Assembly (NCBI RefSeq): GCF_018139625.1
Contig: NZ_JAGSOH010000022.1
Coordinates: 1 to 64,000, forward strand
From: Actinospica acidithermotolerans
GTDB lineage: Bacteria > Actinomycetota > Actinomycetes > Streptomycetales > Catenulisporaceae
Length of the DNA: 64,000 nucleotides
Direction: 5' to 3'
The position numbers and the translations under genes are program-made. Positions 39,889-44,134 of the stretch are shown here, one piece after another (position 1 is the first letter of the stretch; every line of letters begins with the position of its first letter). A model generated the notes under the pieces. It had not been told where the DNA came from. It searched no databases and worked only from the letters and a program-made list of their open reading frames with translations.

Positions 39889-40515
39889 TCAGCGTACGAC
39901 GCGCGGCGCCCGGGAGGCGGCAAGCAGGTATCGGGCCAGGCTGATGAGCACGTCGCGGCAGGATTCGCGCTCGCGGGCGTCGAAGTCGACCACCGGGACC
40001 GTCGTGGGCAGGTCGAGCGCCTCGCGCAGCTCCTCCGGCCGGTAGACCGGCGCGCCGGGGAAGCGGTTGGCCGCGACGATGAACGCGCAGCCGCGCCGCT
40101 CGAGGCGTTCGAGCACGTCGAAGCTCTCGGCCAGCCGCAGCACGTCGACGATCACGACCGCGCCGAGCGCCCCCTCGACGAGACCGTCCCACAGGAACCA
40201 GAAGCGCTCCTGTCCCGGCGTGCCGAACAGGTAGAGCACGACCCGGTCGCTGACCGTGATCCGGCCGAAGTCCATCGCGACGGTGGTCTCGGTCTTGGCC
40301 GAGGACGGACCGAGCGCGTCGACCGGGACCGAGCGCCGCGACATCGTCTCCTCGGTCGTCAGCGGGCTGATCTCGCTGACCGAGCGGACCATGGTGGACT
40401 TGCCGACGCCGAGCGGGCCGACGATCGCGATCTTGAGCGCGACCGTCGCGGTGGGTTCCAGCTCGCGTACTCCGGTCCGCACGCCGCCGAACGGATCAGA
40501 GCCGTTGAAGGCCAC
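39889..40515 (-). CDS. CvnD-like small GTPase of a conservon
   Basis: 208 residues. P-loop GPLGVGKST (33-41), switch/G3 region YLFGTPGQERFWFLW, and NRFPGAPVYRPEEL in place of a canonical NKxD. Such GTPases pair with a CvnA sensor ATPase, roadblock and DUF742 proteins at the membrane in a signalling complex. Overlaps the DUF742 gene by 20 bp. ATG 40515. Confidence 0.92.
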   Translation of the reverse strand: MAFNGSDPFGGVRTGVRELEPTATVALKIAIVGPLGVGKSTMVRSVSEISPLTTEETMSRRSVPVDALGPSSAKTETTVAMDFGRITVSDRVVLYLFGTPGQERFWFLWDGLVEGALGAVVIVDVLRLAESFDVLERLERRGCAFIVAANRFPGAPVYRPEELREALDLPTTVPVVDFDARERESCRDVLISLARYLLAASRAPRVVR

Positions 40516-41173
40516 GCAGTACCTCCTCGATCAGTGCCGGGTCGGGGACGGCGGGCAGCACCGCGTCCCTGGTGCGCACGAGCTCGGCCCGCAGCAGGTC
40601 CTCGACCAGCACGGCCACGGCGCTGAACGGCAGCCGCAGATGGGCCGAGAGCTCGGCGACGGACAGCGGGCTGCGGCAGCGGCGGAGGATGTCGAGGTGC
40701 TCGGGGAACAGGCGGCGCTGCGCGCTCACCGCCTGGGTCACCGCGGAGCTCTGCCAGGGCGTGCCGATCGCGACGACGAGCGTGACCAGGTCGAGCCGGG
40801 TCCGCGCCGCCGGTCCGCCGCGGCCGCCGGTGAGCACGTAGATCCGCTCGGGGCCCGTGTCCTGCGCCGCATCCGCGCCAGGCCGGGCGGATCGCCGCAC
40901 CATCGGGCCCGAATCCTGCGCCGCGTCCACGCCGGGCCGGGCGGGTCGCCGCACCATCGGGCCCGGGTCCTGTGCCGCGTCCGCGGACGGCCGGGCCGGT
41001 CGCCGCACCATCGAGCCCGGGTCCTGCGCCGCATCCGCGCCAGGCCGGGCGGATCGCCGCACCATCGGGCCCTGGTCCTGCGCCGCATCCGCGCCAGGCC
41101 GGGCGGATCGCCGCACCATCGGGCCCTGGTCCTGCGCCGCGTCCGCGCCAGGCCGGGCGGGTCGCCGCATCAT
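40496..41173 (-). CDS. CvnC-like DUF742 protein with N-terminal 18-residue repeats
   Basis: 225 residues. The C-terminal 110 residues are DUF742: YVLTGGRGGPAARTRLDLVT, VTQAVSAQRRLFPEHLDILR, SPLSVAELSAHLRLPFSAVA. Normal DUF742 proteins are about 120 residues. Here about 108 more residues at the N-terminus form six 18-residue units of the type MVRRSARPGADAAQDQGP, basic then acidic/polar. ATG 41173 overlaps the sensor-kinase stop as ATGA. The first unit begins MMRRPARPG. Repeats are coded by 54-bp tandem DNA copies, so length may vary among strains. Confidence 0.88.
   Translation of the reverse strand: MMRRPARPGADAAQDQGPMVRRSARPGADAAQDQGPMVRRSARPGADAAQDPGSMVRRPARPSADAAQDPGPMVRRPARPGVDAAQDSGPMVRRSARPGADAAQDTGPERIYVLTGGRGGPAARTRLDLVTLVVAIGTPWQSSAVTQAVSAQRRLFPEHLDILRRCRSPLSVAELSAHLRLPFSAVAVLVEDLLRAELVRTRDAVLPAVPDPALIEEVLRGLQRL
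40850..41173. repeat. 54-bp tandem repeat, six copies, in frame
   Basis: Six head-to-tail 54-bp units inside the DUF742 gene; units 2 and 3 and the last are nearly identical, others differ at a few codons (Ser/Pro at position 5, Q/P/S/T near the end). The period is a multiple of three, so copy-number change keeps the frame. Confidence 0.85.
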
Positions 41174-42210
41174 GGCTCGACGACCTCGGCGGCCGGGTCG
41201 TACCGCCGCCGTCTCGGCAGGCCCTGGCCGGTGACCTCGGCCGGCTCGGCGCTGCGCGGGCCTCGGTGCGCGGGTCGCGGGCGGGCGGGCGCGGGCTGCC
41301 CGGCCTCGGGCGCGGACCGTACCTCGGGCCGCGGGTCCGGCGCGCCGCGCAGCAGCACCTCCGGGACCCGGATCGAGGCCCGGATCCCGACGTCGCCGGC
41401 GCGCTGCAGGGTGACTTCGAACCCTGCCGCGCGGGCCAGCTTGCCGACCACCGCGAGCCCGAGCTGCGGCGTCTCGCCGAGCGCGGACAGCTCGAAGCCG
41501 ATGGTCTCGGTGCGCAGCGCCAGGTCCGCGCGGCCGAGCGTGTTCGGCCCCATGCCGATGCCCGCGTCCAGCACGTCGATGACGAGCCCGTTCGGCACCT
41601 CGTAGGCGCTCACCTCGACCCTGGCCTCCGGCGGGGAGTAGCGGGTGGCGTTGTCCAGCAGCTCGGCGAGCGCGTGGATCAGCGGTTCGGCGCACGCGCC
41701 GTCGACCACCGAGTGCTCCGGCAGCCGGCCGATGTCCACGCGCGGGTACTCGGTGATCCGCGCCATGGCGCCGCGCAGCACGCCGAGCACCGGGATCGGC
41801 CGCGGCCAACGGCGTTCCGGGCGCTCGCCGCCGAGTACGGCCAGGCTGTCGGCGAGCCGGCCGATCAGCGCCGTGCCGTGGTCGACGTGCAGCAGGTCGC
41901 CGAACACGTCGGCGTCGGCGCCGTGCCGGGACTCCATGTCCCGCAGCTCGCGCAGCTGCTGGTCGACCAGGGCCTGGATGCGGCGGGCGAGGTTGACGAA
42001 GGCGCGCCGGGCGCTCTCGCGCGGATCGCCGTTCGGCCGCAGCCGGGTGGCCTCGTCGAGCTCCGCCTCGTACCGGGCGCGGATCCGGCGGCCGCGCAGC
42101 CACGCCGCGTAAGCCGCGACGGCGAAACCGGCCAGGAAGGCCAGCGTCGCCGTGAGTACCGGGGCGGTCGTCAGGTGGGCGGAGTCGGCGGTCGACCGCG
42201 TAAAGAGCAT
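41170..42210 (-). CDS. CvnA-like sensor ATPase of a conservon
   Basis: 346 residues. One N-terminal transmembrane segment (about 16-38), a helical dimer region (LARRIQALVDQQLRELRDME, LHVDHGTALIGRLADSLAVL) and a HATPase_c domain (ELLDNATRYSPPEARVEVSA, DVLDAGIGMGP, LGLAVVGKLARAAGFEVTLQ). Proline/arginine-rich C-tail. ATG 42210 is preceded by AAGGA; the long upstream frame is rejected. It is followed directly by DUF742 and GTPase genes, but the roadblock gene that usually sits between is on the other strand at 42614. Confidence 0.9.
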   Translation of the reverse strand: MLFTRSTADSAHLTTAPVLTATLAFLAGFAVAAYAAWLRGRRIRARYEAELDEATRLRPNGDPRESARRAFVNLARRIQALVDQQLRELRDMESRHGADADVFGDLLHVDHGTALIGRLADSLAVLGGERPERRWPRPIPVLGVLRGAMARITEYPRVDIGRLPEHSVVDGACAEPLIHALAELLDNATRYSPPEARVEVSAYEVPNGLVIDVLDAGIGMGPNTLGRADLALRTETIGFELSALGETPQLGLAVVGKLARAAGFEVTLQRAGDVGIRASIRVPEVLLRGAPDPRPEVRSAPEAGQPAPARPRPAHRGPRSAEPAEVTGQGLPRRRRYDPAAEVVEP

Positions 42211-43077: not shown

Positions 43078-43479
43078 TCCTCCCCGCACGATCTCAGGCC
43101 CGCGCACGCCAGTCCGGGTCGCGGCCCAGCCAGCCCGCGAGCCGGTCGCACGGCGCCGATCCCGCATCGGCGGCGTGCACCTCGGCGAACGGCACCTCGG
43201 CACCGCGCCGCTCCTCCCCGCACGATCTCAGGCCCGCGCACCCCAGTTCGGGTCGCGGCCCAGCCAGCCCGCGAGCCGGTCGCACGGCGCCGATCCCGCA
43301 TCGGCGGCGTGCACCTCGGCGAACGGCACCTCGGCGCCGCGCCGCTCCTCCCCGCACGATCTCAGGCCCGCGCACGCCAGTTCGGGTCGCGGCCCAGCCA
43401 GCCCGCGAGCCGGTCGCACGGCGCCGATCCCGCATCGGCGGCGTGCACCGCGGCGAACGGCACCTCGGCGCCGCGCCGC
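43078..43479. repeat. 134-bp tandem triplication of a gene 3' end
   Basis: Three near-identical 134-bp units start at 43078, 43212 and 43346; landmark sequences recur exactly 134 bp apart and only a few bases differ. The third unit is the natural 3' end and stop of the TIGR03086-type gene (43362); the other two are extra copies lying beyond the stop. Because 134 is not a multiple of three, the copies shift frame relative to one another but each repeats the same C-terminal coding piece and stop. Confidence 0.9.
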
Positions 43480-44024
43480 TCCGGGGGCAGCACCGTGCGG
43501 GCGAATCCGAGCACGAACTCGGCCAGCTCCTGATCCAGCCCGGCCGTGTCGACGCCGAGCGCACGCGCCAGGTCCCAGGCGTGCGTCGCCGTTTCCATCA
43601 CGTAGCCGTGGAACGCGAACCGGCCCGGCGCGCTCCCCCACGGCACCGCGACCAGGGCCTCCATGCTCGCCTCGGCGGCCCACGCCTTCGCCACGCGGCC
43701 GGAGGCCTCGTCGTACGCGGCGCTCCACTCGTCGTCCGCCACGCCGCGGACCATCGGCTCGAGCGCCAGCCCGTTTCCGCCCTCGCCGATCAGCGCCCAC
43801 CTGTTGCAGCCGCCGAGGACGTGCCCGAGCAGGTCGCGCACGTCGAACTCCGCACACGGCGTCGGCGCCGGCATCTGCTCGGCCTTCGCGGCGGCGACCA
43901 GCTCCGCCATCTGGGCGCGGGCCCGGGCGTACCACGGACGCGGGTCGGCGATCTGCCCGCCGTCGGTGCGGTCGCCGGCGCGGTCGCGGTCGCTGCTCTC
44001 GCCGATGCTGCGGTCGTCTGCCAT
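43362..44024 (-). CDS. TIGR03086/maleylpyruvate-isomerase-like (DinB-fold) protein
   Basis: 220 residues. DinB-like four-helix protein: RARAQMAELVAAAKAEQMPA, PTPCAEFDVRDLLGHVLGGC, METATHAWDLARALGVD with the metal-binding His. The TIGR03086 group is related to mycothiol-dependent isomerases. ATG 44024 follows GGAGG. The C-terminal end (AVHAADAGSAPCDRLAGWLG) is encoded in the third copy of a 134-bp tandem repeat. Divergent from a WYL regulator, a common pairing. Confidence 0.85.
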   Translation of the reverse strand: MADDRSIGESSDRDRAGDRTDGGQIADPRPWYARARAQMAELVAAAKAEQMPAPTPCAEFDVRDLLGHVLGGCNRWALIGEGGNGLALEPMVRGVADDEWSAAYDEASGRVAKAWAAEASMEALVAVPWGSAPGRFAFHGYVMETATHAWDLARALGVDTAGLDQELAEFVLGFARTVLPPERRGAEVPFAAVHAADAGSAPCDRLAGWLGRDPNWRARA

Positions 44025-44134
44025 GAGGTCCTCCGTGAACCATCGTCTCTCCCCCGCGACCGGACGCCGCGGCGAAACGATGCTCACGCTTAAACCAGAC
44101 AGAACCCGTCAGGTTTTGGTGCCAGGATGCCAGG

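Follow-up and report, generated by a model that had tools for sequence, protein, structure and literature searches.

An in-frame 54-bp repeat multiplies the N-terminal leader of CvnC in a conservon of Actinospica acidithermotolerans that lacks cvnB

We found that the CvnC protein of an Actinospica acidithermotolerans conservon starts with six copies of an 18-residue leader, and that cvnB is absent from this conservon, which is unique in our family sample. The window analysed is a stretch of 64,000 nucleotides (contig NZ_JAGSOH010000022.1, positions 1 to 64,000 of the forward strand), and the features discussed are collected in Table 1. We favour, with moderate confidence, an explanation in which slippage or recombination amplified a disordered leader in a cvnB-deleted conservon and gave CvnC a long, mostly tolerated arm. 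The repeat itself is probably an ordinary tandem duplication, that is, a coding minisatellite. A purely neutral account does not explain why it coincides with the unique loss of cvnB.

Table 1. Features of the conservon and its divergent neighbour (positions within the window).
Feature	Position	Strand	Remarks
cvnD, small Ras-like GTPase, 208 aa	39889..40515	-	nucleotide-binding motifs intact
cvnC, DUF742 protein, 225 aa, six-unit leader	40496..41173	-	
DUF742 domain, predicted winged-helix-like	40499..40861	-	profile and model
Leader copy 6	40850..40903	-	adjoins DUF742 domain; orthologs have their single leader (18-19 residues) here
Leader copy 5	40904..40957	-	
Leader copy 4	40958..41011	-	
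Leader copy 3	41012..41065	-	
Leader copy 2	41066..41119	-	
Leader copy 1 (MMRRPARPGADAAQDQGP)	41120..41173	-	ATG overlaps cvnA stop (ATGA)
Putative cvnB-loss scar	41174..41223	-	50 nt, from CvnA GLPRRRRY motif to cvnC ATG
cvnA, histidine-kinase-like ATPase, 346 aa	41170..42210	-	tail ends after GLPRRRRYDPAAE; GQWL motif of relatives lost
Divergent conserved protein, 124 aa	42614..42988	+	position shared with relatives in Actinospica and Catenulispora; not canonical cvnB

The array lies on the minus strand at 40850-41173 and encodes residues 1-108 of CvnC as six head-to-tail, in-frame units of 54 bp, which are translated, in order, as MMRRPARPGADAAQDQGP, MVRRSARPGADAAQDQGP, MVRRSARPGADAAQDPGS, MVRRPARPSADAAQDPGP, MVRRPARPGVDAAQDSGP and MVRRSARPGADAAQDTGP, before the protein continues with ERIYVLTGG. 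Tandem Repeats Finder placed it at 40851-41173 (period 54, 6.0 copies, 89% matches, 0% indels) with a score of 506; 20 random first-order Markov windows of equal size reached 89 at most. In this sense, the original prediction of six 18-residue repeats in a CvnC-like DUF742 signalling protein was borne out by this score, the exact units, the match to PF05331 and the conservon-type operon. It also stated, fairly, that the repeats double the protein (they make up 108 of its 225 residues) and, rightly, that the number of 18-codon units can change without breaking the frame. For A. acidithermotolerans MGRD01-02, a genome draft of 7.9 Mbp in 429 contigs from 2x250-bp Illumina reads was described (PMC9308616), and the assembly analysed here (7.9 Mb, 422 contigs) looks like a 2x250-bp Illumina/SPAdes draft. 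The longest exact direct repeat within the array is 67 nt. Misassembly is unlikely in a draft of this type and we take the array to be real; further identical copies may have collapsed. Head-to-tail, in-frame tandem units are one mark of a polymorphic coding minisatellite (VNTR), and the array has them. With other coding minisatellites it shares this arrangement, a low-complexity disordered product and a lineage-specific occurrence, but here the repeated stretch is the beginning of the gene itself, with its start codon, and the array is known from one genome. In the literature searched, no relevant account of a comparable repeat was found. A role of the array in RNA structure was rejected, no structure signal being found in it (z -0.92).

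The origin of the unit can be read from the relatives. In Actinospica durhamensis, in the congener G002 and in a paralogous conservon of the same genome (contig C328), the leader is exactly the 19 residues before R-[IL]-Y-V-[IL]-T-G-G, and cvnC likewise begins in a stop-start overlap (ATGA/GTGA). The leader of A. acidithermotolerans has 109 residues, which equals 19 + 5x18, and the orthologs have a single 19-residue leader; therefore the array consists of repeats of the start of cvnC itself, ATG included. From this comparison, we trace the repeat unit to the N-terminal leader of CvnC itself together with its ATG, an ancestry that we count as shown. The array was absent from the 13 other genomes of our family comparison (14 genomes including this one, with Actinospica durhamensis, Actinocrinis puniceicyclus and Catenulispora among them), and related species carry one copy of a different leader. 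Elsewhere in the same genome only one weak 53-bp match, on contig C138, was detected, with no sign of a shared element, and a dispersed element was rejected on this ground. The leader measures 14 residues in Actinocrinis, 63-86 in Catenulispora (Pro-rich and of unrelated sequence) and 12-66 in Streptomyces and Frankia so that, judging from the sequences compared, its length varies freely across this CvnC clade (12-86 residues).

The composition of the leader follows a pattern in the clade. In 41 named CvnC orthologs, mainly from Streptomyces and Frankia, the first dozen leader residues are basic (157 K/R vs 26 D/E in 492 positions) and the variable-length linker is acidic (60 K/R vs 171 D/E in 937 positions). 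In Streptomyces, a basic cluster immediately behind the start codon is a conserved part of the leader; it is missing from the leaders of Frankia and the congener G002. Streptomyces CvnC proteins of this clade show a conserved basic start (MTPPRRxRR and similar) and, behind it, a Pro-rich linker whose length varies (L065-L105), a layout for which we found no published description. Each repeat unit of A. acidithermotolerans contains three Arg and then two Asp, and R3, R4, R7, D11 and D15 are identical in all six copies. This invariance, together with the conserved basic cluster of Streptomyces, hints at some function for the leader.

Pairwise, the six copies differ at 2-9 of 54 nt (4-17%), and copies 1-3 are close to each other (2-5 nt). 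They give a dN/dS of about 0.52. By our own count from the codon table, nonsynonymous substitutions make up about 9 of the 16 changes inferred, vs about 69% expected; constraint on the copies is thus weak or none, since 16 changes are too few to set it apart from neutrality. On sampled stretches, the genome holds 20 arrays with a score of at least 200 in 614 kb (3.3 per 100 kb), seven of them with a period not divisible by three; array-rich stretches include L126, L128, L129, L133, L148 and L162. No array of this score was found in 320 kb of the congener G002, and by our own arithmetic the chance of finding none, if both Actinospica rates were equal, is about 2e-4. Catenulispora acidiphila (G004) is also array-rich, with five arrays in 160 kb, four of them within one 20-kb stretch. 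Arrays with a period of at least 36 and at least 4.5 copies are rare (only two in the 614 kb sampled, one of which also occurs in G001), and six copies of a 54-bp unit are extreme even in this array-rich genome. Within the window, a 134-bp unit is also present three times at 98% identity (43078-43482). It lies at the 3' end of a minus-strand gene (43362-44087) resembling mycothiol-maleylpyruvate isomerase genes, and its copies contain the end of that gene, stop included.

As in other conservons (cvnA-cvnB-cvnC-cvnD, such as cvn8 and cvn9 of S. coelicolor and the mycobacterial mfp), the locus encodes a CvnA-like ATPase, CvnC and CvnD in this order with overlapping genes. It differs from them in having no canonical CvnB (a roadblock protein, a GAP in Mfp), a truncated CvnA tail and a six-fold repeated CvnC leader. 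The CvnB homolog MfpD acts as a GAP for its GTPase (PMC9769811). CvnA matches PF02518 (37.4 bits) and is 58% identical to its G002 ortholog, while CvnD matches PF03029 (87.4 bits) and has the GPLGVGKS and FGTPGQ motifs of its orthologs. A tree of CvnC and CvnD groups the array locus with the Actinospica orthologs (bootstrap 94) on an unremarkable branch, and this grouping and the shared divergent 124-aa neighbour point to common descent with four-gene conservons. In the tree, the paralogous conservon on contig C328 clusters with Pseudofrankia/Frankia, to which its CvnB is also close (about 96% identity, L059 6025-6432 vs L061 2537-2944); this suggests horizontal transfer.

At the array locus cvnA directly adjoins cvnC, with no Robl_LC7 gene between them. 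A tblastn search for cvnB between the two genes gave no match, no Robl_LC7 gene was found on the contig that bears the array (C144), and the genome as a whole has six DUF742 and five Robl_LC7 genes. A cvnB lies between cvnA and cvnC in A. durhamensis, G002, Actinocrinis, Catenulispora and the C328 paralog, and a Robl_LC7 gene occupies this place in 43/43 named loci that are not cut by a contig end. When DUF742 and Robl_LC7 matches were paired by hand across the 14 family genomes, 67 of the 71 DUF742 matches had a Robl_LC7 match within about 1 kb; the other four comprise two at contig ends, one weak fragment and the array locus. The latter is the sole exception among 68 testable full-length DUF742 genes, the other 67 being paired with Robl_LC7. 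The distance from the GLPRRRRY motif of CvnA to the cvnC ATG is 50 nt here vs about 590 nt, counted by hand, in G002, where it covers the CvnA tail with GQWL and then cvnB. The frame of cvnA here is the cvnB frame of G002, and the cvnA stop still overlaps the cvnC start (ATGA). One deletion of about 540 bp, starting in the CvnA tail and reaching the last cvnB codons, would account for the loss of cvnB. That the WL motif of the CvnA tail was lost together with CvnB suggests that it may be a CvnB docking site.

The 124-aa neighbour is 81-87% conserved at the same place in G002 and Catenulispora (87% identical in G002), and by eye it looks roadblock-like. It has no match in Pfam, even at E 10, or in NCBIfam, and no profile similarity to canonical CvnB, as far as a thin profile can tell. 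Its identification as cvnB was rejected on the lack of a Pfam match and because the relatives hold a separate canonical cvnB; it is a candidate accessory part or CvnB substitute.

The DUF742 domain (PF05331) spans residues 105-225 of CvnC (E 1.2e-27, 96.5 bits vs a cut-off of 27) and is complete, with profile positions 3-114 covered. AlphaFold2, with 38 sequences, predicted a helical, winged-helix-like DUF742 core (pLDDT about 90-95) and a leader without secondary structure (pLDDT about 39-63). In a fold search the domain model matched winged-helix proteins weakly, none at E 0.001 or better, and a sequence search of the PDB found no DUF742 match. The complete domain is common to this protein and other CvnC/MfpC proteins, with a winged-helix-like fold predicted here, but the protein has 225 aa vs about 120-136 and carries the 108-aa repeated leader. 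It also differs from congener CvnC proteins by a 12-residue insertion in a loop of the domain; a Catenulispora MAG ortholog (L058 4450-4872) has a Pro-rich insertion in the DUF742 loop, where that of A. acidithermotolerans is shorter. Identity to C. acidiphila is the same or similar for this locus and the intact congeners (CvnD 72/72/72%, CvnC domain 62/60/59%), whereas CvnA shows 41-48% identity to the Catenulispora outgroup here vs 50-59% for the congener copy. The CvnC domain and CvnD are under constraint and have no sign of decay, and CvnA is diverging faster. Because CvnD and CvnC are not accelerated and CvnA is more diverged, the system seems to be maintained at its GTPase-CvnC end and is changing at its sensor end.

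In the explanation that we favour, slippage or unequal recombination in a duplication-prone genome would have added five leader copies to the original one, and a deletion would have removed cvnB together with the last part of the CvnA tail and left the cvnA-cvnC overlap in place. The product would be a long flexible arm of six basic-then-acidic blocks, followed by an intact DUF742 domain of winged-helix type. Judging from its homolog MfpC, this domain would act on the GTPase CvnD. MfpC, a CvnC homolog, was suggested to be a likely GEF (PMC13343842). The arm would be mostly tolerated, because the CvnC clade accepts leaders of 12-86 residues, and may add reach or bind the membrane or CvnA weakly, through electrostatic contacts at several points. 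The single 19-aa leaders of orthologs, the free leader length, the array-rich genome and the weak constraint on the copies argue for the tandem duplication, and we infer that the leader is disordered in the cell and the array nearly neutral.

Other readings have to be weighed against these data. It is possible, though unlikely, that the multiplied basic leader docks CvnC on CvnA or on the membrane in place of the CvnB bridge, giving a CvnA-CvnC-CvnD relay. Within the family, cvnB is absent only where the leader has been amplified; the CvnC domain and CvnD are not accelerated, so the system has not died; and every unit repeats the basic block-then-acidic linker layout of the clade. The contacts of Cvn9, in which CvnA9 binds CvnB9 and CvnC9 and both of these bind CvnD9 (Komatsu et al., as cited in PMC8510531), would also suit such a relay. 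Although this reading is in keeping with all that was observed, it draws on a single co-occurrence, the copies are under weak constraint at most, and leaders of Frankia and the congener G002 have no basic cluster. That the six-fold leader has taken over from CvnB as bridge or regulator, turning a four-part relay into a three-part one, we regard as unlikely. Decay of the whole conservon, silenced by the loss of cvnB and with the array as debris of relaxed selection, agrees with the truncated CvnA tail and with the greater distance of CvnA from the outgroup, but CvnD and the CvnC domain are as distant from C. acidiphila as those of intact congeners, all frames are open, the GTPase motifs are intact and the cvnA-cvnC-cvnD overlaps are kept, which makes it highly improbable.

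Two further readings concern the units themselves. Ribosomes could use the ATG of every unit and produce CvnC forms with 0-5 extra units, as every unit boundary is an ATG with AGGA about 10 nt upstream and a computed anti-SD pairing of -5.0 kcal/mol vs -6.6 at the first start. These energies are nevertheless ordinary (all minus-strand ATGs have a median of -3.5 and a quartile of -5.7), the stop-start overlap with cvnA exists only at the first ATG, and a structured RNA signal is missing; initiation at the internal ATGs is possible but not favoured, and a ladder of such starts seems very improbable. The original prediction had further proposed that strains tune a signalling complex by repeat length, the number of units varying by strain to adjust its geometry. 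The 18-codon units are in frame and linker length differs between species, but rapid expansion and contraction are disfavoured because the copies have diverged by 2-9 of 54 nt, at 4-17% far from the 98% uniformity of the neighbouring 134-bp array. The longer Catenulispora leaders are unrelated in sequence, relatives hold one copy of a different leader, and the genome is rich in every kind of tandem array, so that this part of the prediction found no support and tuning is hardly to be expected.

The amplified leader that we favour is, taken alone, an ordinary kind of event; together with the unique absence of cvnB, it makes the locus a variant, not met in the relatives examined, of a known system. 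Without its CvnB partner, the locus represents a naturally occurring system of three parts where four are the rule. Whether the signal travels from CvnA to the GTPase via CvnB or CvnC is an open question (PMC13343842). In this sense, a conservon that lacks CvnB and the matching CvnA tail while its CvnC and CvnD are undecayed constitutes a natural experiment on the route of the CvnA signal.
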